Part shown: piece by piece, positions 3,508-31,199 of the stretch | Numbering within the stretch: the stretch's first letter is position 1 | Layout of the letters: each line of letters starts with the position of its first letter | Origin: a virus | Virus record (IMG/VR): IMGVR_UViG_3300031227_000141 | Location: 1 to 40,154 of that record | DNA: 40,154 nt | Direction: 5' to 3' (one strand) | Notes under the pieces: model-generated | Database searches by the model: none | What the model was told of the DNA's origin: nothing | Seen by the model: only the letters and a program-made list of their open reading frames with translations | Translations under genes and position numbers: made by a program

Positions 3508-3537
3508 AGGATATTGACTAGGTACCACGATTGTCAA
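3508..3537 (-). promoter_or_regulatory. Sigma70-like promoter for the head-assembly block
   Basis: On the minus strand a perfect TTGACA (3537-3532) is followed after 18 bases by TATCCT (3513-3508). The predicted start of transcription is near 3501, about 28 bases before the ATG at 3473. The -35 box forms one arm of the inverted repeat shared with the opposite promoter. Confidence 0.55.
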
Positions 3538-4735: not shown

Positions 4736-6475
4736 CTAAAATACGTCAGGTCTTCTGTGAGGAAGTGTAGAGGCCAGGAAGCAGTACAGGAAAGAGTGAA
4801 AGGAGTCGTCCGTACTTCCTGGGTTATGTTTGTACTCATCCACTCTGGTCTGCTCGTTGAACTCAGAAAAGATGTTCATGAAATCCTGTGCGAAGGGCTT
4901 TCTAAACTCCTCCCACCGAGGGAACCTGAAGACGTTCCTGTTTTTTATAGCCTGGAAGACATCGGACATGATCTCTGTTCTGTTGACCATGAAGCGCTTA
5001 GCCTTAGGCTCCCACTTCATCTTCTCGCGCATAGAACTAGCGTACTGATAGATCATGACCCGCTTCTCGCCGTATCGATTCACTAGCTTACGGTTCTGGT
5101 AGAAGCCTCCACCGTAATCGCAACCAATAACGACAGGCTTCCACTGGTCTATGATGCGGATAATCTTCTCTACCTGCACGGTTGGGTCTATCTCCTGTCC
5201 CTCAAATCTGTACTGCAGAAACACGGTGAACCTGTCGTCTATATAGGCCGCCAGCGTAAGGACGGTGAACGAGGTGTGATGGATGCCATCTGCACCCCAG
5301 TCCAGCCCGGCGAATACAGCCCCTCCGGCTGCTAACTGTTTACGCAAGCCTACTATGGACTCGGAAGACATAGTAAGGTTTTCGTCGCAGTTTGCGAAAA
5401 CATCTTGCTGAGTAAGAGGGCGGCTACCAGAGTCGTAGCTAAGGCCTAGAATCTCATTGTAAAAGCGAGCGCGTCCATAGCGTATCTGATTATCAAGGAT
5501 ACTGGCCCAATCCACAAAGGGGACCATCAGCTGAGATATCCGATAACCTTCGAAGGGGGAAGCCGTACGCGGGTCAGGGTTCATGGACACCCAACTGGCA
5601 TCTTCATGGGCAGCGGTAATCGGTGCGCCGCATTTGTCACAGACCAGCCCGAACTTCCCTATGCTCTTCTCACTGACAATGTTCCAATAGCGGTAGTCCC
5701 CGCCGCCGCAGTTATCGCACGGGATCATCCACTCATTCTGAGTAGAAAACTCTGACCAGTAATACTCAATCGTATTGTCCAGGGTCTTAGGGGTTCCAGA
5801 GTACGTAAATATCTTGAAAGGGGAATGGAAAGCGCACTGCTCAATAACCGGGATATTATCCACCGAAACATCCTGGATCTCATCTATGTTGATTTTATCT
5901 GCCGGGATACCGCGGACGCGATCAGCAGATAAGAAGGCGTACCGGTAACGAATCATGGACCGGTTCACAGACTGCTTGATATTTATATTATCCACTAAGT
6001 CCAGCGGAAAGAAGGGCTTTAGTTTAGGACTCAGCTCGATGACGTTCTTGATGCGTTCTTGGGAGAACTCCTTAGTCTGCGTGTGTGTAGGGGACACGTA
6101 CAGGGTCGAAAAGTTAGACAGGATGCATGTGTACGCAAGGGAAGTGTTCCCTAGTGTCGTAGACTTTTCCACCTGTCGGCCGCACTTCAATAGAAGCTTA
6201 TTCGACTGTGTGTTGTACGGGTCTAGAAGGTAACGCCTGTCGTCAAAAGTGAATGGAATCAGCTTATTATTTACCTTGTCCGGGACTCTTATATAGAACT
6301 CGACAAACTGCGAGGGAAGAACCCTCTGTAAGCCCTGCGCCCGCACTGTCTTCAGCTTCTCCCCGATGTATTGAAACTCAGGGACAAGGATCGGGCTACC
6401 CGACCCATTCACGGGCCTTTGCCTTACTCTTCCGAATGTTTGCGCCAGATGCCTATTTCTGTTTACCAATGGCAT
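4736..6475 (-). CDS. Terminase large subunit (packaging ATPase and nuclease)
   Basis: This is the motor ATPase that packages the genome and the nuclease that cuts it. With the ATG at 6475 it has 579 residues. The ATPase half shows a Walker A-like loop GRQVEKST (99-106) and Walker B INIDEIQD (195-202), then the coupling segment TYSGTPKT. A zinc-ribbon pair, Cys253-x2-Cys256 and Cys279-x2-Cys282, precedes the nuclease, as in GpA-like terminases. The RNase H-type nuclease has acidic residues in AGLDWGADG (Asp392), GCDYGGG and the final STDDSFHSF. A TTG 36 bases further upstream is in frame but forms the first three bases of a TTGACA box and lacks an SD, so the ATG is preferred. Family membership is secure. 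The gene forms a leftward unit between a terminator and a divergent gene. Confidence 0.95.
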   Translation of the reverse strand: MPLVNRNRHLAQTFGRVRQRPVNGSGSPILVPEFQYIGEKLKTVRAQGLQRVLPSQFVEFYIRVPDKVNNKLIPFTFDDRRYLLDPYNTQSNKLLLKCGRQVEKSTTLGNTSLAYTCILSNFSTLYVSPTHTQTKEFSQERIKNVIELSPKLKPFFPLDLVDNINIKQSVNRSMIRYRYAFLSADRVRGIPADKINIDEIQDVSVDNIPVIEQCAFHSPFKIFTYSGTPKTLDNTIEYYWSEFSTQNEWMIPCDNCGGGDYRYWNIVSEKSIGKFGLVCDKCGAPITAAHEDASWVSMNPDPRTASPFEGYRISQLMVPFVDWASILDNQIRYGRARFYNEILGLSYDSGSRPLTQQDVFANCDENLTMSSESIVGLRKQLAAGGAVFAGLDWGADGIHHTSFTVLTLAAYIDDRFTVFLQYRFEGQEIDPTVQVEKIIRIIDQWKPVVIGCDYGGGFYQNRKLVNRYGEKRVMIYQYASSMREKMKWEPKAKRFMVNRTEIMSDVFQAIKNRNVFRFPRWEEFRKPFAQDFMNIFSEFNEQTRVDEYKHNPGSTDDSFHSFLYCFLASTLPHRRPDVF

Positions 6476-6492
6476 AGTTAGAGCGTATAGTA
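6462..6492 (+). promoter_or_regulatory. Possible promoter for the 6524 gene, overlapping the terminase promoter
   Basis: On the plus strand TTTACC (6462-6467) is followed after about 18 bases by TATAGT (6486-6491). The start of transcription would be near 6498, leaving a 26-base leader containing AAGGAG before the ATG at 6524. It overlaps the opposite promoter, so the two could compete. The hexamer matches are modest. Confidence 0.3.
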
Positions 6493-6511
6493 GCCTGTAC
6501 GTACCTGTCAA
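6484..6511 (-). promoter_or_regulatory. Sigma70-like promoter directly abutting the terminase start
   Basis: Minus-strand TTGACA (6511-6506), 16 bases, TATACG (6489-6484), then eight bases to the terminase ATG. Transcription would start about one or two bases before the ATG, which would give an essentially leaderless message. No SD is visible before the ATG. Confidence 0.45.
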
Positions 6512-10944: not shown

Positions 10945-12081
10945 TCAGTCTGAAGTTACGCTTGCTCCAGTGAGCCCTGTTACTTGTTGAAGCAAAGAAG
11001 TCTCTGTCGGGACTGCTCCCCCGTGCGCGTGCACGTTGAACGCAGCCGTCAAAGCCTGTAGTTCAGCGTGCAGAGCCAGAGGCCCCTTAGATCCATTATT
11101 TATCTTAACTCCGCCTGCACCGCAAGTAATCATTCCTCTACCCGCACCGGCCTTGAAATTTCCAACGGAGTTGAAGTCGCCTTTGTGGGCCACGGGGCCG
11201 TCCAGGCTAATTATGTCAGAAGTTATTGTGCACACGCCGGATTCTATTCCAAACTCAACAGCGCTGAATCCAGCTGACACGGCTTCCATGGCCATGCCCT
11301 GTAAGGATTTGAAGGTAATAAGACCGGTCGGGTCCATAATTAAACTACAGGCAGCCATAGAAAAATTGTCCGGAGCAGACCCTACTTGAGTCGTCCCCCA
11401 TCCCTCTGGCATGACGTGTATGGCCAGGCCTCCTAGCTCATTTCCTGCGACCTTCCCTCCAGCTATTATAAAGGCAGCTCCCTTGCCGTCCGAGGCCATC
11501 GCTTTAGCCTCTATACGCATAGAGGTTGGGAGCATTCCTGTCGGTTCCAGAAGCCGCTGTACATTAAACCGAATCCCTCCGGCCATAGTGTGCAGCTCAT
11601 AGTTCTGGCAAAAGTCCTTTATGTAATTGTTAACCGGGATGTACAGTCGCCTGCACACCTTAGTGGCCGCTATGTCGATCACGCCTCCTCTGCGAACAAA
11701 AACGTAGTTCCCGTCTACAGTACCGGCGTAAATATCTCCTGGGTGCATGAGAGGCCTGTTCCCCCTCTGGCTCTTGTCTTTATCGTCACTGTCATCCACA
11801 GCTGGTCCTGTGTAGCCAAGGACAACCGGCTTTTCATCTTTAGTAGAGGTAGTCATCACGTACGAAATAGCACCAACCTCTGGCATGAAATGGAGGCCTC
11901 CACCGTGCGATGCGTGCATGTAAGGAACGCTGTACCCCACGTCAAAGAACTGCTTTGCTCCGCCTATCTCCGCAACGTCCATGGTGAACCTGTCCACGTC
12001 CACAGCTACTACCGAGCAGCGGTAAACAGAAGGAGTTGAACTATCGCTAGTCGACCCACCTTTTTGGTTCGGCTCAGCCAT
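10945..12081 (-). CDS. Baseplate spike / tail-tip puncturing protein (gpV/gp45/gp5-like)
   Basis: A 378-residue protein with the architecture of membrane-piercing tail spikes. The N-terminal part (about 18-95) looks like an OB-fold (YRCSVVAVDVDRFTMDVAEI, then VPYMHASHGGGLHFMPEVGAISYVM), followed by a segment reading GDIYAGTVDGNYVFVRRGGVIDIA as in gp45-type proteins. The rest is short, Gly-rich beta repeats that would form a trimeric beta-helix. Near the end is FNVHAHGGAVP, an H-x-H motif like the one that binds an iron ion at the tip of P2-type spikes. The gene is three bases from its upstream neighbour. The general assignment is good, while the exact family (P2 gpV, Mu gp45 or T4 gp5-like without lysozyme) cannot be fixed by eye. 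Confidence 0.82.
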   Translation of the reverse strand: MAEPNQKGGSTSDSSTPSVYRCSVVAVDVDRFTMDVAEIGGAKQFFDVGYSVPYMHASHGGGLHFMPEVGAISYVMTTSTKDEKPVVLGYTGPAVDDSDDKDKSQRGNRPLMHPGDIYAGTVDGNYVFVRRGGVIDIAATKVCRRLYIPVNNYIKDFCQNYELHTMAGGIRFNVQRLLEPTGMLPTSMRIEAKAMASDGKGAAFIIAGGKVAGNELGGLAIHVMPEGWGTTQVGSAPDNFSMAACSLIMDPTGLITFKSLQGMAMEAVSAGFSAVEFGIESGVCTITSDIISLDGPVAHKGDFNSVGNFKAGAGRGMITCGAGGVKINNGSKGPLALHAELQALTAAFNVHAHGGAVPTETSLLQQVTGLTGASVTSD

Positions 12082-13058: not shown

Positions 13059-16000
13059 CTAATAAAAGAAAGGCTTATCCTCAGTGCCTTCCCCGAAACT
13101 AGTGCCGTAAGCCATACCAGGTATTGGATTAGGACTATGCAGCAAAGAAACATGCCCTTTAGCCGCTGCGTCTACCATCGTTTCTTTGAGGCGTTCAAAT
13201 TGAAGCTTTGCCATCCAGTCTTCCTGCATGTCCAAAGGTGTCTGCTTTCCTCGAAGCAGTAACTGCGCTTTAGCTGGCTTTCCACCAGCACGCCCTTTCT
13301 CATTCCACTTCAACACTTCGTTGAAAGGAACTACGTCACCTATGTACCAGCCCGGCTTATCTCCGGGGTCGTCTATCTTAGAATACCCCATCATGTTTCT
13401 CGCCACAACCTCTGCGTGACGCCTATCTATACGCACTCCCTCGTTCTTGTAAGTAGTAAAAAGATCTTCCGCAAAGTTTTGCTGTACTGCCTTAGGCCCT
13501 ACGAGAGGTAGCAGTTGGTGCGGATTAATAGGACCTGTGGATATCCTCTGTCCTTTCTTGATCCGCGCTCCGGCATTTGCCAAGACCTCTCTATCACGAG
13601 GAACGTAGTGTCTCTCGTCGCCCACAAACAAGTTCCAGCCACCAGCCGGGTCCTTACTCTTCCTAGTGACCAGCCCATCTGCCTTTGCTAGAATAGCTGA
13701 GCCCTTCAGTATCTGCGGCATACCCAACAAGCTTTTGACCCGCCCGTATGCTGACTGCATCTCGGCCCCGGCGTACGTCTCACCACCGTCGTGTGCCTCC
13801 ACCTCTCCTGGCTCAAACACACCGCCGGTATGGAAAGCTTTCATCGCCATATTAACTAGTGGCTCACCAAAAGCCTGGGAGGCTACAACGCCGATGTTGT
13901 CTCCTATATTGGGGTGCGTCCCAGTCTCTATCACGCCCATACACTTCTGACACACACCGTCCCCGTGCTCGCACCTTATTGGAGACCTAACCACTACGGA
14001 ATTCACTTTATTGTTCCGCAGTTTTGTCATTACCTCAGGGGTGATGAGGGTGTCTTTCTTAAACTTAGAAACGCCAGTTCTAGTGTCTACAGCCAGGTGT
14101 CTGTTGAGGATGGAATCATCTTCTGTCTTCAGCTTGATCCCTTTGTTCGTCCCACAATCATTTCCTGTGACCATTGTGGCGATGTTGGACGCAACTATCT
14201 GTTTCGTCATGTACCCTGGGTCCTGTACGGACATCTGCCTCTCTATAGATCCCTTCCTAGACCCGTGCATGGCTGTGAAGTAATCCCCTACATCAAGCCC
14301 TTCTGAGTAGGAGTTACGAATCACCTGAGGGACCATAGATCCGTCGGCCATTCTCACTATCGCAGGAGAAGCCAGTATCTGTTTGGCTGAAGCCCACTTT
14401 GCTTTTGCTCCAGACCTGATCATCTCGTTTATAGCGTTAGTTTCTTTCGCCGTGTCTAGTTCCTTACGGACAGCCTTGTCCATAGCGCCTAGTATTTTAT
14501 CGGTCTCTGCGTTTATCCTCTTGTTTTTCTGGTCACTGGTCAGGATGGTGTTATTTAGCGTCATACGAATACTGCTGTCCAACCGAGCCAGAAACGGGTC
14601 CCTGGTTTCTTTCAGTGGAGTGATGTCGTCCAGACCGATAGTAAACCCGCTCTGGTACGCGTAGTCATTTCCTAGGTCCTTGAACGCATTTACTACCGTT
14701 GGGAACTCATTTGGGTGATTCTTGGCCGTCTGGGTGAAGGCTTCCTTTATCCTATCGTTACCCATAAGTTTGTCTTTATCGTGCAGTACGTTCAGCCTAT
14801 CCGCTACCGCCGTAGGGAGAGCTTTGTACATCATATGCCTGCCCACTGTAGACGCCTTGCCGCCTATGATCACAACGTCAGTTGCTTTGAGGTTCCCCTT
14901 ATTGAACTCTTTAGCAGCCTCGTTGTACGAGCCGAACTTCTTGTTTGTCCTAGTTCCCCACTTACTTAGTTCGTATAGGCCCTGTACAGCCTCGTTGGAG
15001 GGGGTGTACATAACGCCGCCATGCGTTGTGCTGAACAGATTGTTTGAAGGGAGCATCTTTCTGGACTCACCAACAGCCTCATCTGAAACAGGCACGTAGG
15101 CAGACATCGTGTCCCCGTCGAAGTCAGCGCCAAAGCCGCCAGTGACCAGCGGGTGGACCTGCACGGCGCTTCCGCCAATAAGCTTCGGGAAGAAAGCCAT
15201 CACGTTGTACTTGTGGATAGCCGGGTCTCTCTTGAGCAGTACAGGACGATCCTTAACAATGGACTCTAAGTAGGTCCGCACAGACGGGTCGTCATTGTCA
15301 ACAAGTTTCCTGGCTCTTAAAGGGGTGTACCCCGATAGAGACATCTCTCGAATTACGAACGGTTTATACATCTCCAACGCGGCTTTGTAGGGAATACCGA
15401 CCTCATCCAGACCAAGAGAGGGCTCCGGAACAATAGTAGAGCGCATGGACATATCCTGCTTACGCCCTATCAGGTTCTTCTGGAAAAACCCATGGGAAGG
15501 TTTCTTACCGACCACGATGTTAAGGATGCCCTTCTCAACTCTTCTATTCTGGGTAGCGAACCCCTGAAGAGCCTTTAAGCCATCGTATAGCTCATCGTGT
15601 AGAGCCCCCTTGGTTTCGTCCGGAGAGTCCGGATCAAGCGTCTTCAACCCGTCGTTAGTAAGCGCCAGTCCCTTGTACAGCTTGTTCAGGTCGTACACTT
15701 CCAGCGCAGCGCCTTTCCCGGCCCTGGGCCTATCGGCTACGTAGCCTTCCCAGTTAGCCTTTGTGATGGGCCTGAACACCGGAGGTATTACGGGGACTGC
15801 CTGCATGATGTAGGCTTCTGCTGGTTTAAGTTTTACGTTCTTCAACGCTTTCAGGTACCGTATCTTAGCTACAGATTTGTCCCGTGTCGGGCCGTGCTGT
15901 GTCTTTACCTTCTCTTCCAAAGTAGACAGAGTGCTGTCCACATCTATGGCTTCCAGCTTTTTCTTTATCAGTTCCGGACCCGTTACCCCTTCTTCCGAAT

Positions 16001-19000
16001 AGGTTCCCTTCAGCGCTCTGCCGAAGTTAGCCCCTAAGCCTGTCAAGTCCTTTATAGGCTTCTCGAAGAGAGGATTAGGCATGGGCTCCTGAAGATCAAA
16101 ATGAGACCACCTGGTGCCATTCAGCCCTCCAGTTATGTGCAGATCGAAAAGACCTCCCGTCATCGGCTTCAGGTCTTTCCCGCGTATCATAAGCCCAGGA
16201 TCTGACAGAGCACCGCCCGATGTCTTTCGGGTCTGCTCATCGGTAATTGGGGAAAGAAACATCTTGTTTCCTTCCTTCACGGTATCAACGCCCATTCCCC
16301 TAAGATACGCTAGGAACTTGGTATAAACGAAAGGAGTCTTTGGAGGAGGTATGGCGTCTCCAGCCTGCAGCTTCACCCAGAAATCCTCGTCCATGTCGCC
16401 CTTGTAGGTATGGGCCTCCCGTATATTAGCCTTGGCTCCGTGGGCCAGTAACCCGTACAAAGTAAGAGGGTCTAGGGCCTGGGCCCCTGTCCCGGACTTG
16501 GGGGACTGATTTATGTCGTAAGGACTACCAAAGCCGCCGGACCTGGCTGACAACTTCTTTGTGACCTGGTGTTTCTGTTTGAGGATGTACTGCCTGCCTG
16601 TAAATATTTTACCCAGGCTTCTCCCCGTTGTAGGGTCAATCAGCTCTTCTTTGCCAGAGGGATCGAACCCGTTCTTACGGAGCAGTTCCTTGACTTCCTC
16701 CACCTTATCCTTGCCGGGACTACCGAAGCTGTCTATCTTAATGGGCTTTCCTAGCTTGAAAGCTACCTTAGCCGCGGCTGTCTCCAGAAGCTGGCCCGGA
16801 TTTATTCTTCCGTGAACGCCCGTGGGGTCCATGATCACTTCTATAGGCAGACCGTCTTTTGTATGTGGAATCTCGTGATCCGGAACTATCTTCGTAACCA
16901 CACCTTTGTTAGCGTGGCGTCCCACGATCTTATCTCCCAGTTGAATAGGCTCGGACGTCCTTGTGTAGACCTTTATCTTACCTGGGGACTTGTGCACTTT
17001 AGAGACTGTAGCTGGACCGGCACCGTCCCAGATTATGGGATCTACCTTAAACTCACTTCTGAAAGCTTTTGATATTTGCTTTCCTTCCAGAGTCGGGTCC
17101 CGCCTAAGCAGCTTCCCTATAACCACGTCACCTGGGTTCAGTACTACGCCTTCACGGACGATGCCGTCGTCATCCAGTTTCTCCTCTTGCTCCGCTGTAA
17201 GAGGAGCGGATTCCCCTAAGAACCTGCGCTTGTTGAGTAGGACATCCTCGTTTATCTCTATCTGGTCTTTGTGCAGATGATCTGAGGACATTTTCTTAGC
17301 CGCTGACTCAGACAGCACTATCCCGTCATCAAAGTTGTACCCTTTGTACGGTAGGTACGCTATGCGTAGGTTACGCCCAATAGAGAACACGCCGTCCTTG
17401 GTGAAGTTAGTATCAGCCAGCAGTTGGCCTTTCTTTACCGTGTCCCCCGCCTTAACCACAGGAGTAGAATCTATCATCATCCTGTCTTCGTTGAGCGGAA
17501 ACTCATCGTACAGAGGGATGCGGACTTTCTCTCCAGTGTGGCTTTTCAGGACTATTCCGTCCTTGCCTACTCTCTGCACGATACCTGCGGCAGGGGAATG
17601 CCTAGCAAACCTCTGCCCGAATATCTCCTCGAAGCTGGTATTCGGATCTTCGGAAGCAGACTGAATAAGGGGAGCTTCAGGGTGAGTGAGGCCGACGGCT
17701 TGCTCTTGTTGCCTGGAGGCCATAGACGCCCTGTTTCCCTGATCATTCATCAAGAACGGGATCATGTTAGACGACAGATCAAACAAAGCCCTAGGACTTT
17801 TCATGACATAATCTGCCTTCGTGTAGGGGATTACGTCGATCCCGCCGTCTTTGGTCCAGGTCTTGACTTCTTTCTCTACGGGTACCGGAGTGTCCCCCTG
17901 CCATTTAACCTGGTCTGGAAGAACCACGTTCGTTGACGCAGCCTCCATCGGGTCTATGTAAACGGTCTTGCCCGTTTTACGATCGTATACCGGGGTGTAG
18001 GTAGTATTTCCTACCTTCTTTACGCCGATAGGAAGATGCAGGGTTATGCCTATCTTCTCTGATTCTGGGGTGTGTATGGGGTCCCTAAACCCAAGATGCG
18101 ATTCATCCAGATATCTAGCGGAGTCCTCCACGCCCTGATCAGTTTCAATACCCTTTTTACCCATCCTGGTGACGACAGTATGGTTCGATAGCATGTCCAG
18201 CGGGTTCGTCTGCACCGGGCTTCTACCGAGATTAAAGGTCTGTGGCTTGAAAGCGTTTATTACGTACTTCTTGAAGACGTCAGCGGAGAATACCCCGTCT
18301 ACCGTATCCGGTACCGTAGGGCTTGAGAGTCTTCTATTGAGGGCGTTCTTTATCTGAAACTTATTGTCCTGTGTTACGTGTTCATAGACCAGATCGTCCA
18401 GTCCGTGGATATTAGCAAACTCTATCGAGTTCCTGTTGTCCGGTTTCTCATCCCCTCTGGCTACTGACAGTAATCTTTTTGAGGAAGCAAGGAGAGCGTC
18501 TCCAGAGGCGTAGCTAAAAGGCTTTCCCAAAGTTTTCTTTGTTACTTTAGGATCGAAAGTAGCTTCCTTCAACCACTCACTCGCCCACACCTTGGCCTCT
18601 TCCATAGTTTCGACTTTAGGGAGCCCGATGGACTTACGCCATTTATTTATGTCCTGTAGCGGGTTCTTGGGGATATTGTCGTTGTATATCTTATTTCCCC
18701 ACGCCTCTTTCATCTTATCCGAGGACACTCCTGCTACCGACAGTAGCGAGACCAGGTTGAAGTTCGTAGATCCACCGTAGTTAGCTTTGAAGGAATGGGC
18801 TTCAGGGTCAAAAAATAGCTTCAACCTACGCCGTTTGGCTGACTGCTGGAAGTTCAGCATAGACTCCAGCTCGCCGTTGGCCATAATGCGTGTGTACACA
18901 CCAGGCTTCAGCCTGTCTTGGAACCCGGTCTGGAACTCCTTGCCGTTAACGATGTAAGACCACCTGTCAGTGATCCTGGGGAGCTGAGCGAGAGTGACGG

Positions 19001-19253
19001 TGCTGGTGTCGGTATGCCCCGTCTTGTTGTCCGTCAGTTTAATCTTTGCCTTTACTGGCACAGCCCACGTACCGTCTCTCAGCTTCACCTTTTTTTGCGT
19101 AGCGTAGTCGTCTGCGGTGTATTTATCGTCCACCCATATCTCTTTGAGTTCCAGTTTTTTCTGTCCGTGCTCATGGGGGAAGTGGGAGGCTATGGCGTCC
19201 ATAGTTTTTTTCTTAAGTTCTTTGAACGGAACTTCGGGATTTATATAGGACAC
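13059..19253 (-). CDS. Single-chain multisubunit-type RNA polymerase (beta and beta' fused)
   Basis: A DNA-dependent RNA polymerase of about 2064 residues with beta and beta' in one polypeptide. The beta half (to about residue 950) has HTPESEKIGITL (fork region), MIPFLMNDQGNRASMASRQ, GYNFDDGIVLSE and GDKIVGRHANKGVV with GVHGRINPGQLLE. The beta' half has GRKQDMSMRSTIVPEPSL, LLKRDPAIHKYNVMAF and the catalytic GADFDGD (Asp codons within 15111-15125, residues about 1377-1381). It also has the zinc site NDCGT plus CEHGDGVCQKC and the trigger helix SQAFGEPLVNMAMKAFHTGG. The usual Asn of NADFDGD is Gly. The beta' N-terminal zinc finger was not found. E. coli beta plus beta' total about 2750 residues, so this version is trimmed. 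GTG at 19253 is preferred because AGAGG lies seven bases upstream and an earlier GTG (19352) precedes the promoter. It leads the tail-tip block. No alpha, omega or sigma gene is seen here. Identity is secure. Packaging in the virion is inferred from its place. Confidence 0.93.
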   Translation of the reverse strand: MSYINPEVPFKELKKKTMDAIASHFPHEHGQKKLELKEIWVDDKYTADDYATQKKVKLRDGTWAVPVKAKIKLTDNKTGHTDTSTVTLAQLPRITDRWSYIVNGKEFQTGFQDRLKPGVYTRIMANGELESMLNFQQSAKRRRLKLFFDPEAHSFKANYGGSTNFNLVSLLSVAGVSSDKMKEAWGNKIYNDNIPKNPLQDINKWRKSIGLPKVETMEEAKVWASEWLKEATFDPKVTKKTLGKPFSYASGDALLASSKRLLSVARGDEKPDNRNSIEFANIHGLDDLVYEHVTQDNKFQIKNALNRRLSSPTVPDTVDGVFSADVFKKYVINAFKPQTFNLGRSPVQTNPLDMLSNHTVVTRMGKKGIETDQGVEDSARYLDESHLGFRDPIHTPESEKIGITLHLPIGVKKVGNTTYTPVYDRKTGKTVYIDPMEAASTNVVLPDQVKWQGDTPVPVEKEVKTWTKDGGIDVIPYTKADYVMKSPRALFDLSSNMIPFLMNDQGNRASMASRQQEQAVGLTHPEAPLIQSASEDPNTSFEEIFGQRFARHSPAAGIVQRVGKDGIVLKSHTGEKVRIPLYDEFPLNEDRMMIDSTPVVKAGDTVKKGQLLADTNFTKDGVFSIGRNLRIAYLPYKGYNFDDGIVLSESAAKKMSSDHLHKDQIEINEDVLLNKRRFLGESAPLTAEQEEKLDDDGIVREGVVLNPGDVVIGKLLRRDPTLEGKQISKAFRSEFKVDPIIWDGAGPATVSKVHKSPGKIKVYTRTSEPIQLGDKIVGRHANKGVVTKIVPDHEIPHTKDGLPIEVIMDPTGVHGRINPGQLLETAAAKVAFKLGKPIKIDSFGSPGKDKVEEVKELLRKNGFDPSGKEELIDPTTGRSLGKIFTGRQYILKQKHQVTKKLSARSGGFGSPYDINQSPKSGTGAQALDPLTLYGLLAHGAKANIREAHTYKGDMDEDFWVKLQAGDAIPPPKTPFVYTKFLAYLRGMGVDTVKEGNKMFLSPITDEQTRKTSGGALSDPGLMIRGKDLKPMTGGLFDLHITGGLNGTRWSHFDLQEPMPNPLFEKPIKDLTGLGANFGRALKGTYSEEGVTGPELIKKKLEAIDVDSTLSTLEEKVKTQHGPTRDKSVAKIRYLKALKNVKLKPAEAYIMQAVPVIPPVFRPITKANWEGYVADRPRAGKGAALEVYDLNKLYKGLALTNDGLKTLDPDSPDETKGALHDELYDGLKALQGFATQNRRVEKGILNIVVGKKPSHGFFQKNLIGRKQDMSMRSTIVPEPSLGLDEVGIPYKAALEMYKPFVIREMSLSGYTPLRARKLVDNDDPSVRTYLESIVKDRPVLLKRDPAIHKYNVMAFFPKLIGGSAVQVHPLVTGGFGADFDGDTMSAYVPVSDEAVGESRKMLPSNNLFSTTHGGVMYTPSNEAVQGLYELSKWGTRTNKKFGSYNEAAKEFNKGNLKATDVVIIGGKASTVGRHMMYKALPTAVADRLNVLHDKDKLMGNDRIKEAFTQTAKNHPNEFPTVVNAFKDLGNDYAYQSGFTIGLDDITPLKETRDPFLARLDSSIRMTLNNTILTSDQKNKRINAETDKILGAMDKAVRKELDTAKETNAINEMIRSGAKAKWASAKQILASPAIVRMADGSMVPQVIRNSYSEGLDVGDYFTAMHGSRKGSIERQMSVQDPGYMTKQIVASNIATMVTGNDCGTNKGIKLKTEDDSILNRHLAVDTRTGVSKFKKDTLITPEVMTKLRNNKVNSVVVRSPIRCEHGDGVCQKCMGVIETGTHPNIGDNIGVVASQAFGEPLVNMAMKAFHTGGVFEPGEVEAHDGGETYAGAEMQSAYGRVKSLLGMPQILKGSAILAKADGLVTRKSKDPAGGWNLFVGDERHYVPRDREVLANAGARIKKGQRISTGPINPHQLLPLVGPKAVQQNFAEDLFTTYKNEGVRIDRRHAEVVARNMMGYSKIDDPGDKPGWYIGDVVPFNEVLKWNEKGRAGGKPAKAQLLLRGKQTPLDMQEDWMAKLQFERLKETMVDAAAKGHVSLLHSPNPIPGMAYGTSFGEGTEDKPFFY

Positions 19254-19286: not shown

Positions 19287-19316
19287 ATGGTACGACCCTA
19301 AGACTTGGAATGTCAA
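19287..19316 (-). promoter_or_regulatory. Sigma70-like promoter for the RNA polymerase/tail-tip block
   Basis: Minus-strand TTGACA (19316-19311), 18 bases, TACCAT (19292-19287). Transcription would start near 19280, 27 bases before the preferred GTG at 19253 and after the longer in-frame start at 19352, which supports the shorter protein. Confidence 0.5.
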
Positions 19317-19378
19317 CCATTTTATCGCATAAGAGAACCGATATAGGCCCACGTTTATTCTTAACGAAAGGAGTGCCC

Positions 19379-20199: not shown

Positions 20200-22221
20200 C
20201 TACACTAGGCCCGAAGACGGGTCCCGCCTAGGCGGCTTCTGATTAGGTAAAGGCATCGAACTAGCGGACATAGGCTGCCTATTCTCTTGCTTCTGGCCGA
20301 GCATAGAAAGGACCAGAGCGTAAAGCTGCTGATTCTGCTTAGCTAGGGTGTTTAGAGCAGCAAACCTATCGACGTCATTTTCCATTGTAGATATTGCATC
20401 AGCCACTCGTTTAGCGGCATACCCCATAGACACGCCGCCCGGAGAAGCGGCTGACTGCATAGACAGCTGAGACTGCATTTCCTTCGGAACGTTCTGGGGT
20501 TGCTGGTTACTCTGTGGGTACATACTAGCCTGTGCAGGCGCACCAGCAGGGCCCTGGCCCGGAGGAGCTTGGCCCGGAGGAGCCTGGCCCGGAGGTTGCT
20601 GTCCAGCGCCGGGTGGTTGGCCTGCACCAGCAGCGGGAGGAGGAGCAGCTGCGCCGCCTCCGCTTAGATCATTCTGCATGGCCATCTGTTGCTGGGTCAT
20701 GACACGCTGCACCTTGCCCTGGATAGTGGCCTGAGAGATCTGCATTTTCTCCTGAGCAGCAATCTGCTTGTCGATCTCCTCTGATTTTCTCTTTTCCTCT
20801 ATCTCAAGCTCGAAGTTCGAGTCCTCAAGCAGCGTGCGGTCACTAAGCTTCTGCGCCTGATTCATCTGGAAGTAATAAGCCGATCTCTGGAGATCATCAG
20901 CCATCTTAAACTTCTCATGGCGCACCGGAATCTTGGTCCAGTCCATGTAGGTGGCCGTAGTATCGAGCACAAACCTAACCATAAGCAGCTGATCCTGCAG
21001 ATAGCCTATGAATTCGTTTTCCAGGAACCTGAGCGAGACGTTACTTCCGCTGTACGAAAGACCGCCAAACACAAACTCTACCGGGAAGCCCATACCAGAC
21101 ACGATCTGTTCGGCTACGCCTCTGATCTCCTGATGCACCATGAGGGCTTTTCCCTGGCCGCTTATGGTCTCGTGCCCCATCGGTATGGGGAGAATCGGTA
21201 TGTAGTTATTGTCGTACTTCCAGCGGGTTATCTCTTCTTCTATCTCGCCTCTCCACTGGGCCAGATCCACCATTCTGTACGGGTCAGACGTGGAGCTGCC
21301 TGCTTGAGGGAAGATGACCCTAAGAGGCACTACGTGGTCTGTCGCTATGGCTTCCTGGGCTTTACGAAGGATCTGCATGTAGAACGTGTCCTTCAGAACC
21401 GGAAGTATCATTGGCATTCCCCAACCATTCCACGATGCCCGCTCGTCCGGGTGGGATATGTTGGCTCGCCTCATATGGTACACGTTCTTCGGATTGAGAA
21501 TCAGGTTCTTTTTTAGCCTGATAGCCCTGAGGTAGATATCGGGAGTGGTCTCTACGATAGAGCTTTTCCCGATCCTCAGGTCGTTGCCGAGCGTTTTAGG
21601 TATCTTGTACAGATAGGTGTAAGTGCCCGTCGTCTCGTTGTAGTCTATCCGGATATTCTCTGGATTCCACCGTATGAGCTTGATGTCCCGGTAGGACTTG
21701 TAGTAGTGATCTATGACCTTCGCTTTGGTCTTCTCCCCGCACACAGGGCAGGTAAGCTCAAAGTGCATACTTCTGAACTTCCAGTGCTTTCTTAGGTTCT
21801 CTACCCTGTCCCTGGATTTACACTTCCTGCACTCCAGGAATTTGTAGAAGGGGAACACAACCGAGATAAAGGCGTTGCCGTAGCAAGCCCTGTCCAGCCC
21901 GGCTTCTATTTGGAATGTACGGAGGTTCAAGACGTCTTCGAACAGATGCTTCCACTGCTCTTTCAACCGGTAGTCCGTCGTTTCGTATATCAGATTTCTG
22001 ATTGGGTAGGCCGCCATTTTATAGCAGACGGCGTTGATTATGGGATTGGATAGGAAATAGTACCTACACCACTGGAAAAGCGTACGTATGTCGCTCGGTA
22101 AGTAGGTCTGCGCTATGTCAAAGAAAGGACTCGGGTAAGACAAAGCTGACCCAGATCTTCTGGACGTAAACCTATACCCGGTTCCAGGGCCCTTCGATGC
22201 GTAAAAGTCGTTAATACCCAT
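20200..22221 (-). CDS. Portal protein
   Basis: The portal, a ring at the head vertex through which DNA enters and leaves. The 673 residues include an N-terminal stem region (SPFFDIAQTYLPSDIRTLF, FLSNPIINAVCYKMAAYPI) and the typical portal segments AGLDRACYGNAFISV and, near 260-290, NVYHMRRANISHPDERASWNGWGMP. Next are KAQEAIATDHVVPLRVIFP and SGMGFPVEFVFGGLSYSGSNVSLRFLENEF. A zinc-ribbon insertion with Cys131-x2-Cys134 and Cys158-x2-Cys161 is unusual for portals. After residue 500 the tail is Gln, Pro and Gly rich, with tandem PPGQA units, then a short helical end. The start at 22221 overlaps the upstream stop (TAATG). The assignment is good from motif layout and context. The tail is probably disordered. 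Confidence 0.88.
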   Translation of the reverse strand: MGINDFYASKGPGTGYRFTSRRSGSALSYPSPFFDIAQTYLPSDIRTLFQWCRYYFLSNPIINAVCYKMAAYPIRNLIYETTDYRLKEQWKHLFEDVLNLRTFQIEAGLDRACYGNAFISVVFPFYKFLECRKCKSRDRVENLRKHWKFRSMHFELTCPVCGEKTKAKVIDHYYKSYRDIKLIRWNPENIRIDYNETTGTYTYLYKIPKTLGNDLRIGKSSIVETTPDIYLRAIRLKKNLILNPKNVYHMRRANISHPDERASWNGWGMPMILPVLKDTFYMQILRKAQEAIATDHVVPLRVIFPQAGSSTSDPYRMVDLAQWRGEIEEEITRWKYDNNYIPILPIPMGHETISGQGKALMVHQEIRGVAEQIVSGMGFPVEFVFGGLSYSGSNVSLRFLENEFIGYLQDQLLMVRFVLDTTATYMDWTKIPVRHEKFKMADDLQRSAYYFQMNQAQKLSDRTLLEDSNFELEIEEKRKSEEIDKQIAAQEKMQISQATIQGKVQRVMTQQQMAMQNDLSGGGAAAPPPAAGAGQPPGAGQQPPGQAPPGQAPPGQGPAGAPAQASMYPQSNQQPQNVPKEMQSQLSMQSAASPGGVSMGYAAKRVADAISTMENDVDRFAALNTLAKQNQQLYALVLSMLGQKQENRQPMSASSMPLPNQKPPRRDPSSGLV
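20554..20595 (-). repeat. 15-base tandem repeat in the portal tail
   Basis: Two full and one partial copy of a 15-base unit (CTGGCCCGGAGGAGC and close variant, 20554-20568, 20569-20583, 20584-20595). They encode repeated PPGQA in the disordered portal C-terminus, where copy number could vary. Confidence 0.85.
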
Positions 22222-25610: not shown

Positions 25611-25653
25611 GTCTATCTCCAAGAACGGAAATTACACGAATCCCGTACGAAAT

Positions 25654-25681
25654 TGTATAAGTCCAAGCCCCCTAATGTCAA
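25654..25681 (-). promoter_or_regulatory. Sigma70-like promoter for the portal block
   Basis: Minus-strand TTGACA (25681-25676), 16 bases, TATACA (25659-25654). The start of transcription would be near 25647, giving a 37-base leader to the ATG at 25610. The bases before the -35 (CAC) match those at the 3537 promoter. A plus-strand TATAAG (25656-25661) overlaps the -10 and could serve the opposite operon, though no good plus-strand -35 was found. The rest of 25611-25765 holds nothing else seen. Confidence 0.6.
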
Positions 25682-26143: not shown

Positions 26144-26641
26144 GTGTCGTTCCTAAAAATCAGTGAGCCAAGAAGTTTCCTCAGACAAACAAGAATGCGG
26201 AAAAAACTATCGAAGAGCGCCCTGGCCCAAAAGGCCGGGGTGGACCGGCAGACAATCATCCGACTAGAAAGAGAGGAGTCAACCCACCAACCCAGCCTAA
26301 ACACGCTAACGAAAGTGTGCAGAGTCCTAGGCATAATTCACGAGAGGGACCTGCTGAACACGGCCTTTAACACCCTGTCCGGTGGGGCCAACATCCCGGC
26401 GATACAGCCGACGGTGATGCTGAACATATCAGCCAGAGACAAAGTAAAGATGCGCGAGACTTTGAAGAGGCACGTAAAGCGCCTACTAAAAGACTTCGGT
26501 CTGCTGGACAAAGTAGACGCAGCGGTCATGGAAGAGATAGACGCAGGACTGGATAGGGCCGTGCGTCTCACCCTGCAAAAGCGTAAGGAGGAAGGCCTAC
26601 AAAATGGAATTCAGTATGAGGATGAAGGAGAGGAGTCCTGA
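26144..26641 (+). CDS. XRE/Cro-type helix-turn-helix regulator
   Basis: A 165-residue protein starting with GTG at 26144. Residues 13-60 form a typical XRE helix-turn-helix (RQTRMRKKLSKSALAQKAG, DRQTIIRLER, then LNTLTKVCRVLGI). The remaining part is charged and helical (KVKMRETLKRHVKRLLKDFG), perhaps for dimerisation. GGGAG and AAAG lie upstream. The end overlaps the helicase start by 38 bases. It probably controls transcription, perhaps of the replication module or of the opposed portal operon from which it is divergently placed. The DNA-binding assignment is firm. The target is inferred. Confidence 0.85.
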   Translation: MSFLKISEPRSFLRQTRMRKKLSKSALAQKAGVDRQTIIRLEREESTHQPSLNTLTKVCRVLGIIHERDLLNTAFNTLSGGANIPAIQPTVMLNISARDKVKMRETLKRHVKRLLKDFGLLDKVDAAVMEEIDAGLDRAVRLTLQKRKEEGLQNGIQYEDEGEES

Positions 26642-28808
26642 TGCAGCGTACGTAAGCAACAACCTGTGGCTTCCACGGAAGCACGTACACCTCGCCTCTA
26701 TCGAACGAGCACTCACTTATTGGGATGAACTGGGGCATCCTTTTCTGTACATGTTCTCCTACTATCAGGACCACATAATTGTGCCAAGGAGCTTTATCGA
26801 ACCCAAAAACTACCCCAAGTACGCGTTCCCCTTCATCGACGTGAGGCAGACCTCCTTCGAGGAAGTAGATGTGCAGTTCCACTTGCCTGCGCGAGAGAGC
26901 CACCCTACCGACATCAGGGGGAGGGACGCTTTGGTAAAGACAAGGGGCGGGATACTGGAGTATGCCTGCGTAGCCGGAGACACTATACTTAATGTCAATA
27001 GAGGCGGAAAAGGCTTCAAAGTAACCATAAAAACAGCGTACGAAAGGCAAGAAGGGGGGCGGTACGCCTGGGATTCGACAATCTCTACAAGAATCCGTTC
27101 TGATATGGGAGGGCACATAGGTCTAAATAAAGTGCTTGCCATTCTCTATAAAGGCAAAAGAAGGACTAAGTACCTAGAGCTGAAAAATGGCGCGAACTTA
27201 CGAATAACTGAAGACCATGAGGCTTTAACAGAAAGGGGCTACGTAAAAATTAAAGACCTGATAGTCAACGAAGATAGGGTGGTAACGGACGGCTGGCTAG
27301 TAAGCAGAAGCACACACAAGCCAAAACAAGTGTACAGGCGATCCAGTTGGTACAAGCACCACCCGTACGTTCGATACCAGAAAAGAAAGGACCGTACAGC
27401 CCTAGTCTACGCAATAGAAACACACCGCGCCGTGTATGAGGCTAGACTAAACAACTTACCGTTCAAAGAATTTAGAGAGCGTTGTCGCTCCGGTGACATA
27501 AGTGAGCTCACTTTTGTTGATCCCTCTAAATTTCACATTCACCACAAGGATGGGAACATCCACAACAATACACCAGACAACCTAGAAAGCCTTCCGGCAG
27601 AAAAACACTTAAAAATACACAGGCCTGGGAGTAAGGCGTTCGGCCACGGAGAACTCATGCCTAGCTTAGTGGTCGGTCTATCCGACGGCGGACTTGAAGA
27701 AGTGTATGACATAGCGTGCGCGGACCCTCACCACAACTTCGTAGCCAACGGAATTGTTATTGCAAATTGTGGCAAGGGAAAAACACTAGTGTCCGTAGCC
27801 GCGTGGGTGATGAAGAAAGTACCCGCACTGGTAATCGTGGATGACCAGGGGCTGCTTAGCCAGTGGAAGAAGGTCCTGACCCAAGAGGATAAGCACCTAA
27901 AAGGACTGGCTGTGTCGGATAGCAAGGGAAACCCCATCACGGTAGGGCATGTACAGCGCGACGTGCTTGACTTTGAAGGGCACCCCATCACCGTGGCTAT
28001 GATCCACACGTTAGTGAAGAACCCTAAGCGATGGGACGAGAGGTTCCGCAGATACTTTGGGGTAGTGATCTACGATGAGGTCCACACCATTGGTGCGCCT
28101 ACCTTCTCCAGAGCAGCGCCTATGTTCAACGGGACCCGGTGGGGCCTTACGGCCACGTACCCTAGAGAAGACGGGATGGAGTCAGTGTACTCCTACCACA
28201 TAGGGCCCGTGATAGACAGTGACCTTACGCATGAGTTAGTCCCGACCGCGGTGTTCCTAAGATCGGGTATCCGGGTAGATTTTGATAAACACGAGGAGAA
28301 AACAGCCGTAACTGACGTACGAGGGGAGGTAAACATATCCAAGTACAGGACTTGGCTCGGGAACCATGAGGAGAGAAACAACAGGATAAGTCTAATGATT
28401 CAGCAATCCCTGACAGTGGGAAGGAAAATACTGGTATTGACCCACTGTAAAGCTCAGGCAGAATTAATGCATAAGCGCTTTCCTTCGTCCGGTATTATTA
28501 CCGGTAGCGTGGATAGGGACGAAAGGCTGACCATGCTGCTGGACAAGCCGCTGACCTTTGCTGTCGTAAAATGCGGTAAGCGAGGGCTGGATGACCCCAG
28601 CATAGACACAATCTACTACCTGACGCCGTTCAAATCGAAAGAGATGCTAAATCAATCAATGGGAAGGGCCCAGAGAGCTGTTGAGGGAAAAAGAGAAGTG
28701 CTCCTGTTCTTTATCGAGGATGAGGACAGAATGTCCAGGGGATTGCTAGGAGAAGTTAAGCGCCTACTCGTTGGAGCAGGCATCAAGTACACCAACGAAA
28801 AGCTATAG
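26604..28808 (+). CDS. SF2 DNA helicase interrupted by an HNH intein
   Basis: The precursor has 734 residues. Removing the intein (122-388) leaves a 467-residue helicase. Its N-terminal domain (1-121) precedes a P-loop re-formed on splicing as A|CGKGKT (Cys389-Thr394). Further motifs are the DEVH box (491-494, VVIYDEVH), GLTATYP (514-520, motif III-like) and QSMGRAQRAVEGKR near 640-670 (motif VI). This resembles UvsW/XPB-type superfamily 2 helicases of phages, which act in branch migration and replication restart. AGGAGGAAGG precedes the ATG at 26604 and the start overlaps the regulator gene. The helicase class is secure. UvsW equivalence is an inference from phage context. Without splicing the P-loop would be broken, so intein removal is needed for activity. 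Confidence 0.92.
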   Translation: MEFSMRMKERSPDAAYVSNNLWLPRKHVHLASIERALTYWDELGHPFLYMFSYYQDHIIVPRSFIEPKNYPKYAFPFIDVRQTSFEEVDVQFHLPARESHPTDIRGRDALVKTRGGILEYACVAGDTILNVNRGGKGFKVTIKTAYERQEGGRYAWDSTISTRIRSDMGGHIGLNKVLAILYKGKRRTKYLELKNGANLRITEDHEALTERGYVKIKDLIVNEDRVVTDGWLVSRSTHKPKQVYRRSSWYKHHPYVRYQKRKDRTALVYAIETHRAVYEARLNNLPFKEFRERCRSGDISELTFVDPSKFHIHHKDGNIHNNTPDNLESLPAEKHLKIHRPGSKAFGHGELMPSLVVGLSDGGLEEVYDIACADPHHNFVANGIVIANCGKGKTLVSVAAWVMKKVPALVIVDDQGLLSQWKKVLTQEDKHLKGLAVSDSKGNPITVGHVQRDVLDFEGHPITVAMIHTLVKNPKRWDERFRRYFGVVIYDEVHTIGAPTFSRAAPMFNGTRWGLTATYPREDGMESVYSYHIGPVIDSDLTHELVPTAVFLRSGIRVDFDKHEEKTAVTDVRGEVNISKYRTWLGNHEERNNRISLMIQQSLTVGRKILVLTHCKAQAELMHKRFPSSGIITGSVDRDERLTMLLDKPLTFAVVKCGKRGLDDPSIDTIYYLTPFKSKEMLNQSMGRAQRAVEGKREVLLFFIEDEDRMSRGLLGEVKRLLVGAGIKYTNEKL
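26967..27767 (+). mobile_element. Intein with HNH homing endonuclease, in the helicase P-loop
   Basis: A 267-residue intein. It begins with Cys122 in CVAGDTILNV (block A), has the block B pattern LRITEDHEAL (Thr202, His205) and ends with VYDIACADPHHNFVANGIVIAN, followed by Cys389 of the C-extein. Between the splicing blocks lies an HNH endonuclease domain: HIHHKDGN (311-318), NNTPDNLE, then His335 and His339. The residue before the terminal Asn is Ala (A387) where most inteins have His. Such inteins can still splice, sometimes slowly. Insertion in the conserved P-loop is typical of homing inteins because it is hard to lose. Confidence 0.9.
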
Positions 28809-31170: not shown

Positions 31171-31199
31171 TTGACATTCGCATTTTCCGGCCCTAAAAT
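31171..31199 (+). promoter_or_regulatory. Strong sigma70-like promoter for the helicase-primase-polymerase set
   Basis: TTGACA (31171-31176), exactly 17 bases, TAAAAT (31194-31199). The start of transcription would be near 31206, with GGAGG before the ATG at 31221. This is the best promoter match in the window. The rest of the 92-base gap holds an A run after the previous stop and nothing else seen. Confidence 0.75.

Follow-up and report, generated by a model that had tools for sequence, protein, structure and literature searches.

A beta-beta' RNA polymerase in one polypeptide, encoded among the structural genes of a tailed phage and likely packaged in its particles

Introduction

The 40,154-base virus record IMGVR_UViG_3300031227_000141 (G000), called the window here over its whole length, carries within a block of virion genes one very long reading frame with motifs of both large subunits of bacterial RNA polymerase, beta and beta'. 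The locus raises two questions: whether a whole polymerase core is encoded as a single chain, and what such an enzyme would do for the phage. An earlier reading of the sequence alone had proposed a natural fusion, packaged in the virion and acting early after injection. On the evidence below, we consider it fairly probable that the product is a one-chain RNA polymerase that is packaged, is guided by sigma, works without alpha and serves early transcription.

A polymerase core in a single frame

The frame runs uninterrupted along the minus strand (19253..13059) and specifies a protein of 2,064 amino acids (aa), while the plus strand of 13059-19253 has many stops. Its longest version starts at a GTG at 19352 (2,097 aa, P0001), and this version is used for residue numbering throughout. 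The GTG at 19253 is probably the true start, since the alignments with nearly all relatives begin no earlier than P0001 residue 34 and a promoter-like site lies 34 nucleotides (nt) upstream. The main features are as follows.

13059..19253, minus strand: fused beta-beta' RNA polymerase gene, 2,064 aa (frame; Pfam and NCBIfam matches; protein start of relatives corresponds to 19253)
16269..19253, minus strand: beta half, residues 34-1028, with protrusion/lobe, fork, double-psi barrel and C-terminal region (profile match, AlphaFold, Foldseek)
17322..17342, minus strand: beta motif GYNFDDG, residues 671-677 (sequence motif)
16902..16922, minus strand: beta motif GRHANKG, residues 811-817 (sequence motif)
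16257..16283, minus strand: beta-beta' junction TVKEGNKMF, residues ~1024-1032, almost linker-free (alignment to the end of cellular RpoB and the start of cellular RpoC)
13062..16268, minus strand: beta' half, residues ~1029-2097 (profile match, alignment, AlphaFold, Foldseek)
16107..16124, minus strand: LNGTRW, residues 1077-1082, at the place of the lost N-terminal beta' zinc ribbon (alignment, all relatives shown)
15564..15692, minus strand: clamp helices, residues 1221-1263 (alignment to beta' 260-309; two long helices in the model)
15111..15128, minus strand: catalytic ADFDGD, residues 1409-1414, equivalent to beta' D460/D462/D464 (alignment)
14184..14291, minus strand: bridge helix, residues ~1688-1723 (helix 759-794 of AlphaFold part B)
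13941..13973 (three Cys), minus strand: zinc site C1794/C1801/C1804 plus C1733, matching E. coli beta' C888/C895/C898 plus C814 (alignment)
13722..13895, minus strand: trigger helices and loop, residues 1820-1877, the tip (1851-1865) of low confidence (model and motif)

The continuous frame, the beta and beta' motifs and the one zinc site named in the sequence-only reading were all found, and the strand, which it did not give, is minus. Pfam matches follow the order Rpb2 domains 3 and 6, then Rpb1 domains 2, 3 and 5 (domain 3 below the curated cut-off), with best E-values of 2.4e-62 for beta and 5.7e-23 for beta'. The single-subunit RpoB and RpoC models of NCBIfam match the respective halves, and the top NCBIfam model by E-value is that of the Helicobacter fused beta/beta' protein (3e-158), at 528 bits against a cut-off of 5,372. 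The aspartate triad D1410/D1412/D1414 is kept in 56 of 56 members of the phage clade described below, and the alignment places alongside it the beta residues that match a two-barrel core of the DxDGD type. The trigger helix ends in FHTGG, and the clamp helices, which in bacteria are the docking site for sigma region 2, are present.

At the junction, the phage beta C-terminus TPFVYTKFLAYLRGMGVDTVKEGN, which aligns with that of Salmonella RpoB, continues directly into beta' from about residue 14. About six residues then stand in for the N-terminal zinc ribbon of beta', which has about 38 residues in bacteria, so that the single zinc site of the window polymerase is the second beta' site of E. 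coli and the first is absent by alignment. The total is 685 residues below E. coli beta plus beta' (2,749 - 2,064), close to the figure of about 700 estimated earlier, and the rest of the shortfall would reflect the absence of insertions specific to the E. coli lineage. Within the clade, the second beta' zinc site has itself been lost at least twice (L013; L107, L117 and L147).

With profiles built from 48 relatives, nearly the full length of bacterial beta is matched, as is beta' from about residue 150 almost to the C-terminus. The chain was too long for one AlphaFold run and was modelled with these 48 relatives as two overlapping halves, residues 34-1130 (predicted local distance difference test, pLDDT, 86.7; predicted template modelling score, pTM, 0.77) and 930-2097 (pLDDT 88.0, pTM 0.86). 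Foldseek searches with the models returned bacterial RpoB (best E-value 1.6e-73) and bacterial RpoC (1.1e-63), the two halves thus having the overall folds of the two subunits. Judged by sequence and models, the protein is a complete bacterial-type RNA polymerase core in one polypeptide and should be catalytically competent.

Relatives and phylogeny

An initial scan found 14 viral contigs with 40-45% identity, and a profile scan gave at least 149 viral contigs with relatives, 80 of which were kept for comparison. Most relatives are single frames of about 1,980-2,210 residues, while the best cellular matches are only 26-32% identical and are separate genes. Contamination by a bacterial rpoBC operon was rejected on these last two grounds and on the phage genes that surround the locus.

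A FastTree phylogeny was calculated from 124 sequences, all of phages or bacteria (56 of the phage clade, 66 from bacteria as RpoB/RpoC pairs and two from phages in which the genes are separate). The 56 fused or split phage polymerases form one clade (support 1.0), apart from the bacteria and from the two separate-gene phages. Phylogeny and structure prediction against RpoB/RpoC had been proposed as checks in the sequence-only reading, and they yielded a phage-only clade and a bacterial-type core fold, respectively. Within the clade, a subgroup comprising Arash, D69, L107, L114, L117 and L147 (support 0.98) has the polymerase split near residue 1496|1501. Fusion is the state of the deepest branches, and the split members retain the beta-beta' joint, so the sequences are most simply explained by a fusion ancestral to the clade and a secondary split. 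The first polymerase gene of the cultured phages Arash and D69 spans the beta-beta' junction, and alignment shows Arash Gp216 to be the remainder of beta'. The product of gp206 in OQ632216.1 (L016:11932-16509), annotated as beta and given that name in the Arash paper (PMC10585845), consists of beta and the first half of beta', including ADYDGD.

An assembly artefact or a misread gene pair, in which a missed stop, a frameshift or an intron would have joined two genes, would have undone the fusion. Two relatives (L084 and L111) are split at other places, possibly through errors, whereas the same fusion and junction recur in about 50 non-redundant contigs from different metagenomes as well as in cultured Arash and D69, which already refutes the artefact; we regard its likelihood as negligible. 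The missed stop or intron that had been named in advance as a danger to the fusion was thus looked for in tens of independent contigs, and the same uninterrupted fusion was seen. Together with the shared single frames and the alignments of the junction and zinc ribbon, this upholds the fusion first read from the window.

Genomic setting and particle data

The window is collinear with a contig of 201,921 bases (G001), and by this sequence comparison is about one fifth of a phage genome of about 200 kb. The polymerase gene lies in a minus-strand structural block, with a portal homologue upstream and a spike-like gene, other structural genes and the terminase downstream, while the opposite arm of the window carries a DnaB-type helicase and DNA polymerase A.

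20200..22221, minus strand: portal homologue, upstream of the polymerase (33% identical to a Vibrio phage D69 protein, 30% to an Arash protein)
10945..12081, minus strand: putative baseplate-spike-like gene, conserved beside the polymerase (assigned by sequence reading only)
4736..6511, minus strand: terminase large subunit (phrog_675, 2.9e-67; PF05876, 2e-12)

Pfam and PHROG searches with the spike-like gene gave no match. In 59 of 76 loci a portal homologue precedes the polymerase on its own strand, and in 64 of 79 it is followed by the spike-like gene, the next structural gene or both, so that the place in the virion block described in the sequence-only reading is both supported and conserved.

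Published mass spectrometry of particles of Salmonella phage Arash (PMC10585845) bears directly on packaging. Gp206 is the top protein (3,516 spectra, 128 unique peptides, 100% coverage) and exceeds the major capsid protein in spectra, Gp216 gave 1,210 spectra and the sigma factor Gp10 gave 467 (PMC10585845). The Arash homologue of the window portal, annotated as portal, was also detected in particles. Taken with the clade relationship, these data clarify the published Arash results, in which the most-detected particle protein is a polymerase core, and by analogy make it likely that the window polymerase is packaged. We stop short of calling packaging proven, because the Arash authors allow for carry-over of abundant proteins and their preparation was rich in enzymes.

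Alternatively, the enzyme might not be a virion polymerase but be produced in the infected cell to transcribe middle or late genes, reaching Arash particles as carry-over from abundant expression; we consider this rather unlikely. The Arash authors themselves state the carry-over option, and their preparation held many replication and metabolic enzymes, some having many spectra on only two unique peptides. Against this, the polymerase tops all Arash proteins in spectra, above the major capsid protein; its gene lies between the portal and the spike and terminase genes across the clade; the sigma partner in Arash is encoded within a structural gene block; and with one polymerase per genome no separate virion enzyme would remain.

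Sigma factor, alpha subunit and promoters

An orthologue of the Arash sigma Gp10 was found in D69 and in the 201,921-base contig as well as in Arash itself, and a three-sequence profile detected a Gp10-type sigma in 21 of 22 large clade genomes (in G025 only at E 3.6e-4). The lone large record without it is a 133 kb fragment, which carries another sigma-like gene. For alpha, searches of large relatives with PF01000 (12 records) and PF01193 (22 records) gave no match over the cut-off, while the controls gave matches; the alpha dimer of a bacterial-type core was thus not seen in the clade. As alpha is undetectable, the protein would work like a bacterial core but does not amount to a complete bacterial-type enzyme. 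No second polymerase as in phiKZ was found, each of 20 records having a single beta-barrel place (one of them intein-interrupted). The earlier observation that neither alpha nor sigma is encoded nearby holds for the contig itself; in the large relatives it stands for alpha and fails for sigma.

The promoter-like site and the equivalent of the rifampicin pocket are located as follows.

19287..19316, minus strand: promoter-like site TTGACA-N18-TACCAT, 34 nt before the probable start codon (19253)
18162..18224, minus strand: rifampicin-pocket equivalent, residues 377-397 (8 of 10 examined contact positions differ from E. coli)

Sites of the form TTGACA-N16-19-TANNNT number five in the window (1.05 expected), most of them at unit starts, and from their sequence they could serve either the host polymerase or the phage enzyme. 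Those at unit starts lie at 3508-3537, 19287-19316, 25652-25681 (minus) and 31171-31199 (plus); three of them share TTGACATT. In about 70 relatives, the sequences preceding the polymerase gene showed no excess of a shared -35/-10 promoter over shuffled sequences, and for this reason the window promoter is not claimed as a feature of the clade. The changes at the rifampicin-contact positions predict that the polymerase is resistant to the drug.

The fused chain might also be a core scaffold that recruits host alpha, host sigma or both, giving a modified host-like enzyme for host-type promoters. The bacterial-like clamp helices fit this idea, as do the TTGACA-N17/18-TAnnAT sites that start several window units. 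The clade, on the other hand, almost universally encodes its own sigma, phiKZ-type cores function without alpha (PMC7598289), and relatives show no enrichment of this promoter type before the polymerase gene, all of which make such recruitment quite improbable.

Several points weigh against a packaged, sigma-guided enzyme acting early. Replication enzymes were also present in the Arash preparation, whose authors allow carry-over (PMC10585845). Arash is only about 30% identical to the window polymerase and has its core in two chains. The phage of the window is known from sequence alone and the particle data are those of Arash, so that its packaging and early action are here inferred by analogy. 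The host-type promoters could mean that some units are readable by the host polymerase. A sigma gene is absent from the 40-kb window, which we attribute to the shortness of the contig, and one is predicted elsewhere in the genome of this phage.

Our preferred scheme remains the packaged enzyme. The polymerase would be a late product of the structural gene block, enter the particle with the Gp10-type sigma and be injected with it alongside the DNA, whereupon it would start early transcription from phage promoters. The beta-beta' fusion would do the assembly job of the alpha dimer in cells. With one polymerase per genome, later genes would have to be transcribed by this core under another sigma, by the host polymerase, or by both. 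The chance is about even that this extends to the whole tailed-phage clade, each member packaging a self-sufficient, one-chain, alpha-free polymerase with its own sigma, which would be a natural sigma-dependent enzyme of minimal form, the fusion having replaced alpha as platform with loss of the zinc ribbon, and early infection being independent of the host enzyme and probably rifampicin-resistant.

Inteins at active-site motifs

The polymerase genes of relatives are interrupted in frame at no fewer than six places, among them ADFDGD, the GRHANKG region and the trigger loop, with matches to LAGLIDADG and Hint/intein families. The window polymerase itself has no intein. These insertions bear on the suggestion that polymerase activity has been lost and that the protein is an internal head protein. 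High abundance in Arash particles would suit that role, whereas the aspartate triad is kept throughout the clade and the inteins are placed precisely at motifs of the active site, a position in which an intein survives only when the spliced protein is of use; the suggestion is accordingly very improbable.

The inteins number one to three per frame and occupy recurrent sites (L129:8091-18866, L143:8040-17618, L142, L134, L003, L006 and L131); with three inserts, the L129 polymerase frame reaches 3,591 residues. An insert at the catalytic motif in L003 (14165-15691) has odd ends, DFDG-N-C...V-W-D-T, and non-standard splice boundaries would be needed to restore DGD. In Vibrio phage D181 (L064:2968-10950) the polymerase gene is in three pieces, with a homing endonuclease gene within the beta part.

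Comparison with known polymerases

The mReC phages, described by Weinheimer and Aylward (2020, PMC7481178), are members of the Caudovirales whose beta and beta' branch deeply. Like them, the window polymerase has cell-like beta and beta' recognized by ordinary profiles, is surrounded by tailed-phage genes in IMG/VR contigs, and falls in a phage-only beta/beta' clade apart from bacterial RpoB/RpoC (56 members, support 1.0). One relative, L096, comes from metagenome 3300017989, also the source of two mReC representatives. Membership in mReC is likely, judged by the published description, whose text names three representatives. The window terminase matches PF05876 only, and PF03237 is reported for the mReC terminases with a Pfam match; 14 of 31 mReC terminases lack a match, and the Pfam versions differ. 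The main text of the mReC paper (PMC7481178) makes no mention of fusion in mReC, sigma, alpha, particles or inteins.

Arash (Gp206, Gp216 and Gp10) and the Vibrio phages D69, D181 and D148 share the clade, the order portal, small gene, polymerase, and a Gp10-type sigma; the Arash-type core differs in being split after the catalytic domain (P0001 ~1496|1501) and in its identity of about 30%. In phiKZ-type polymerases a split at a comparable place after the catalytic barrel coincides with the cyanobacterial split (PMC7598289). The phiKZ/AR9-type enzymes are likewise phage-encoded multisubunit-type cores without alpha, and one of the two is packaged; unlike the window clade, which has one enzyme and a bacterial-type sigma, and the window core, which is one chain, they have 4-5 chains, two enzymes and no bacterial sigma homologue (PMC7598289, PMC13282480). 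The window polymerase is also much more similar to cellular enzymes.

The RpoBC proteins of Helicobacter and Wolbachia are also natural head-to-tail beta-beta' fusions; they are, in contrast, cellular, with models of 2,839-2,890 positions, and the window polymerase scores far below the family cut-off. These fused bacterial enzymes work with alpha. The YonO, crAss-like and P23-45 polymerases are single polypeptides with both barrels, and some single-chain polymerases are virion-borne, as for P23-45 gp96 (PMC10770324). They are highly divergent and, along most of the chain, unalignable to cellular enzymes, whereas the subunits of the window polymerase align almost end to end.

A literature search, mostly of freely readable main texts, gave no description of a one-chain core with a packaged sigma, and the jumbo phage reviews describe split, sigma-free enzymes. 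The kind of polymerase is thus already published (mReC phages, 2020), and a variant in which the core is one chain and a dedicated sigma is packaged appears to be undescribed. Within the papers that could be searched, the one-chain build, the loss of the zinc ribbon, the lack of alpha and the sigma partner had not been brought together.

In cellular RNA polymerases a small-subunit platform (alpha or its relatives) assembles beta and beta'. The clade is a natural test of what this platform is for, as it keeps the bacterial core and sigma docking in one chain with alpha undetected. If core and sigma travel in the particle, these phages would begin transcription with no need of the host enzyme, a point of interest for host takeover and for resistance to inhibitors of the host polymerase. 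A chain of 2,064 residues with a sigma of about 235 would also make a compact, easily made sigma-dependent polymerase.

Other features of the window and its relatives

Near residues 130-172 the portal homologue (20200-22221, minus strand) is rich in Cys and resembles a zinc ribbon (weak PF08271 match). The helicase gene of the window (26604-28808, plus strand) contains an in-frame intein with an HNH endonuclease (PF14890, PF13392). PHROG matches of unknown function were 25354 and 24349. Enlarged portals are found in the relatives L003 and L004 (953 aa) and L006 (1,439 aa), and enlarged terminases in L005 and L009 (1,026 aa), in both cases probably through inteins.

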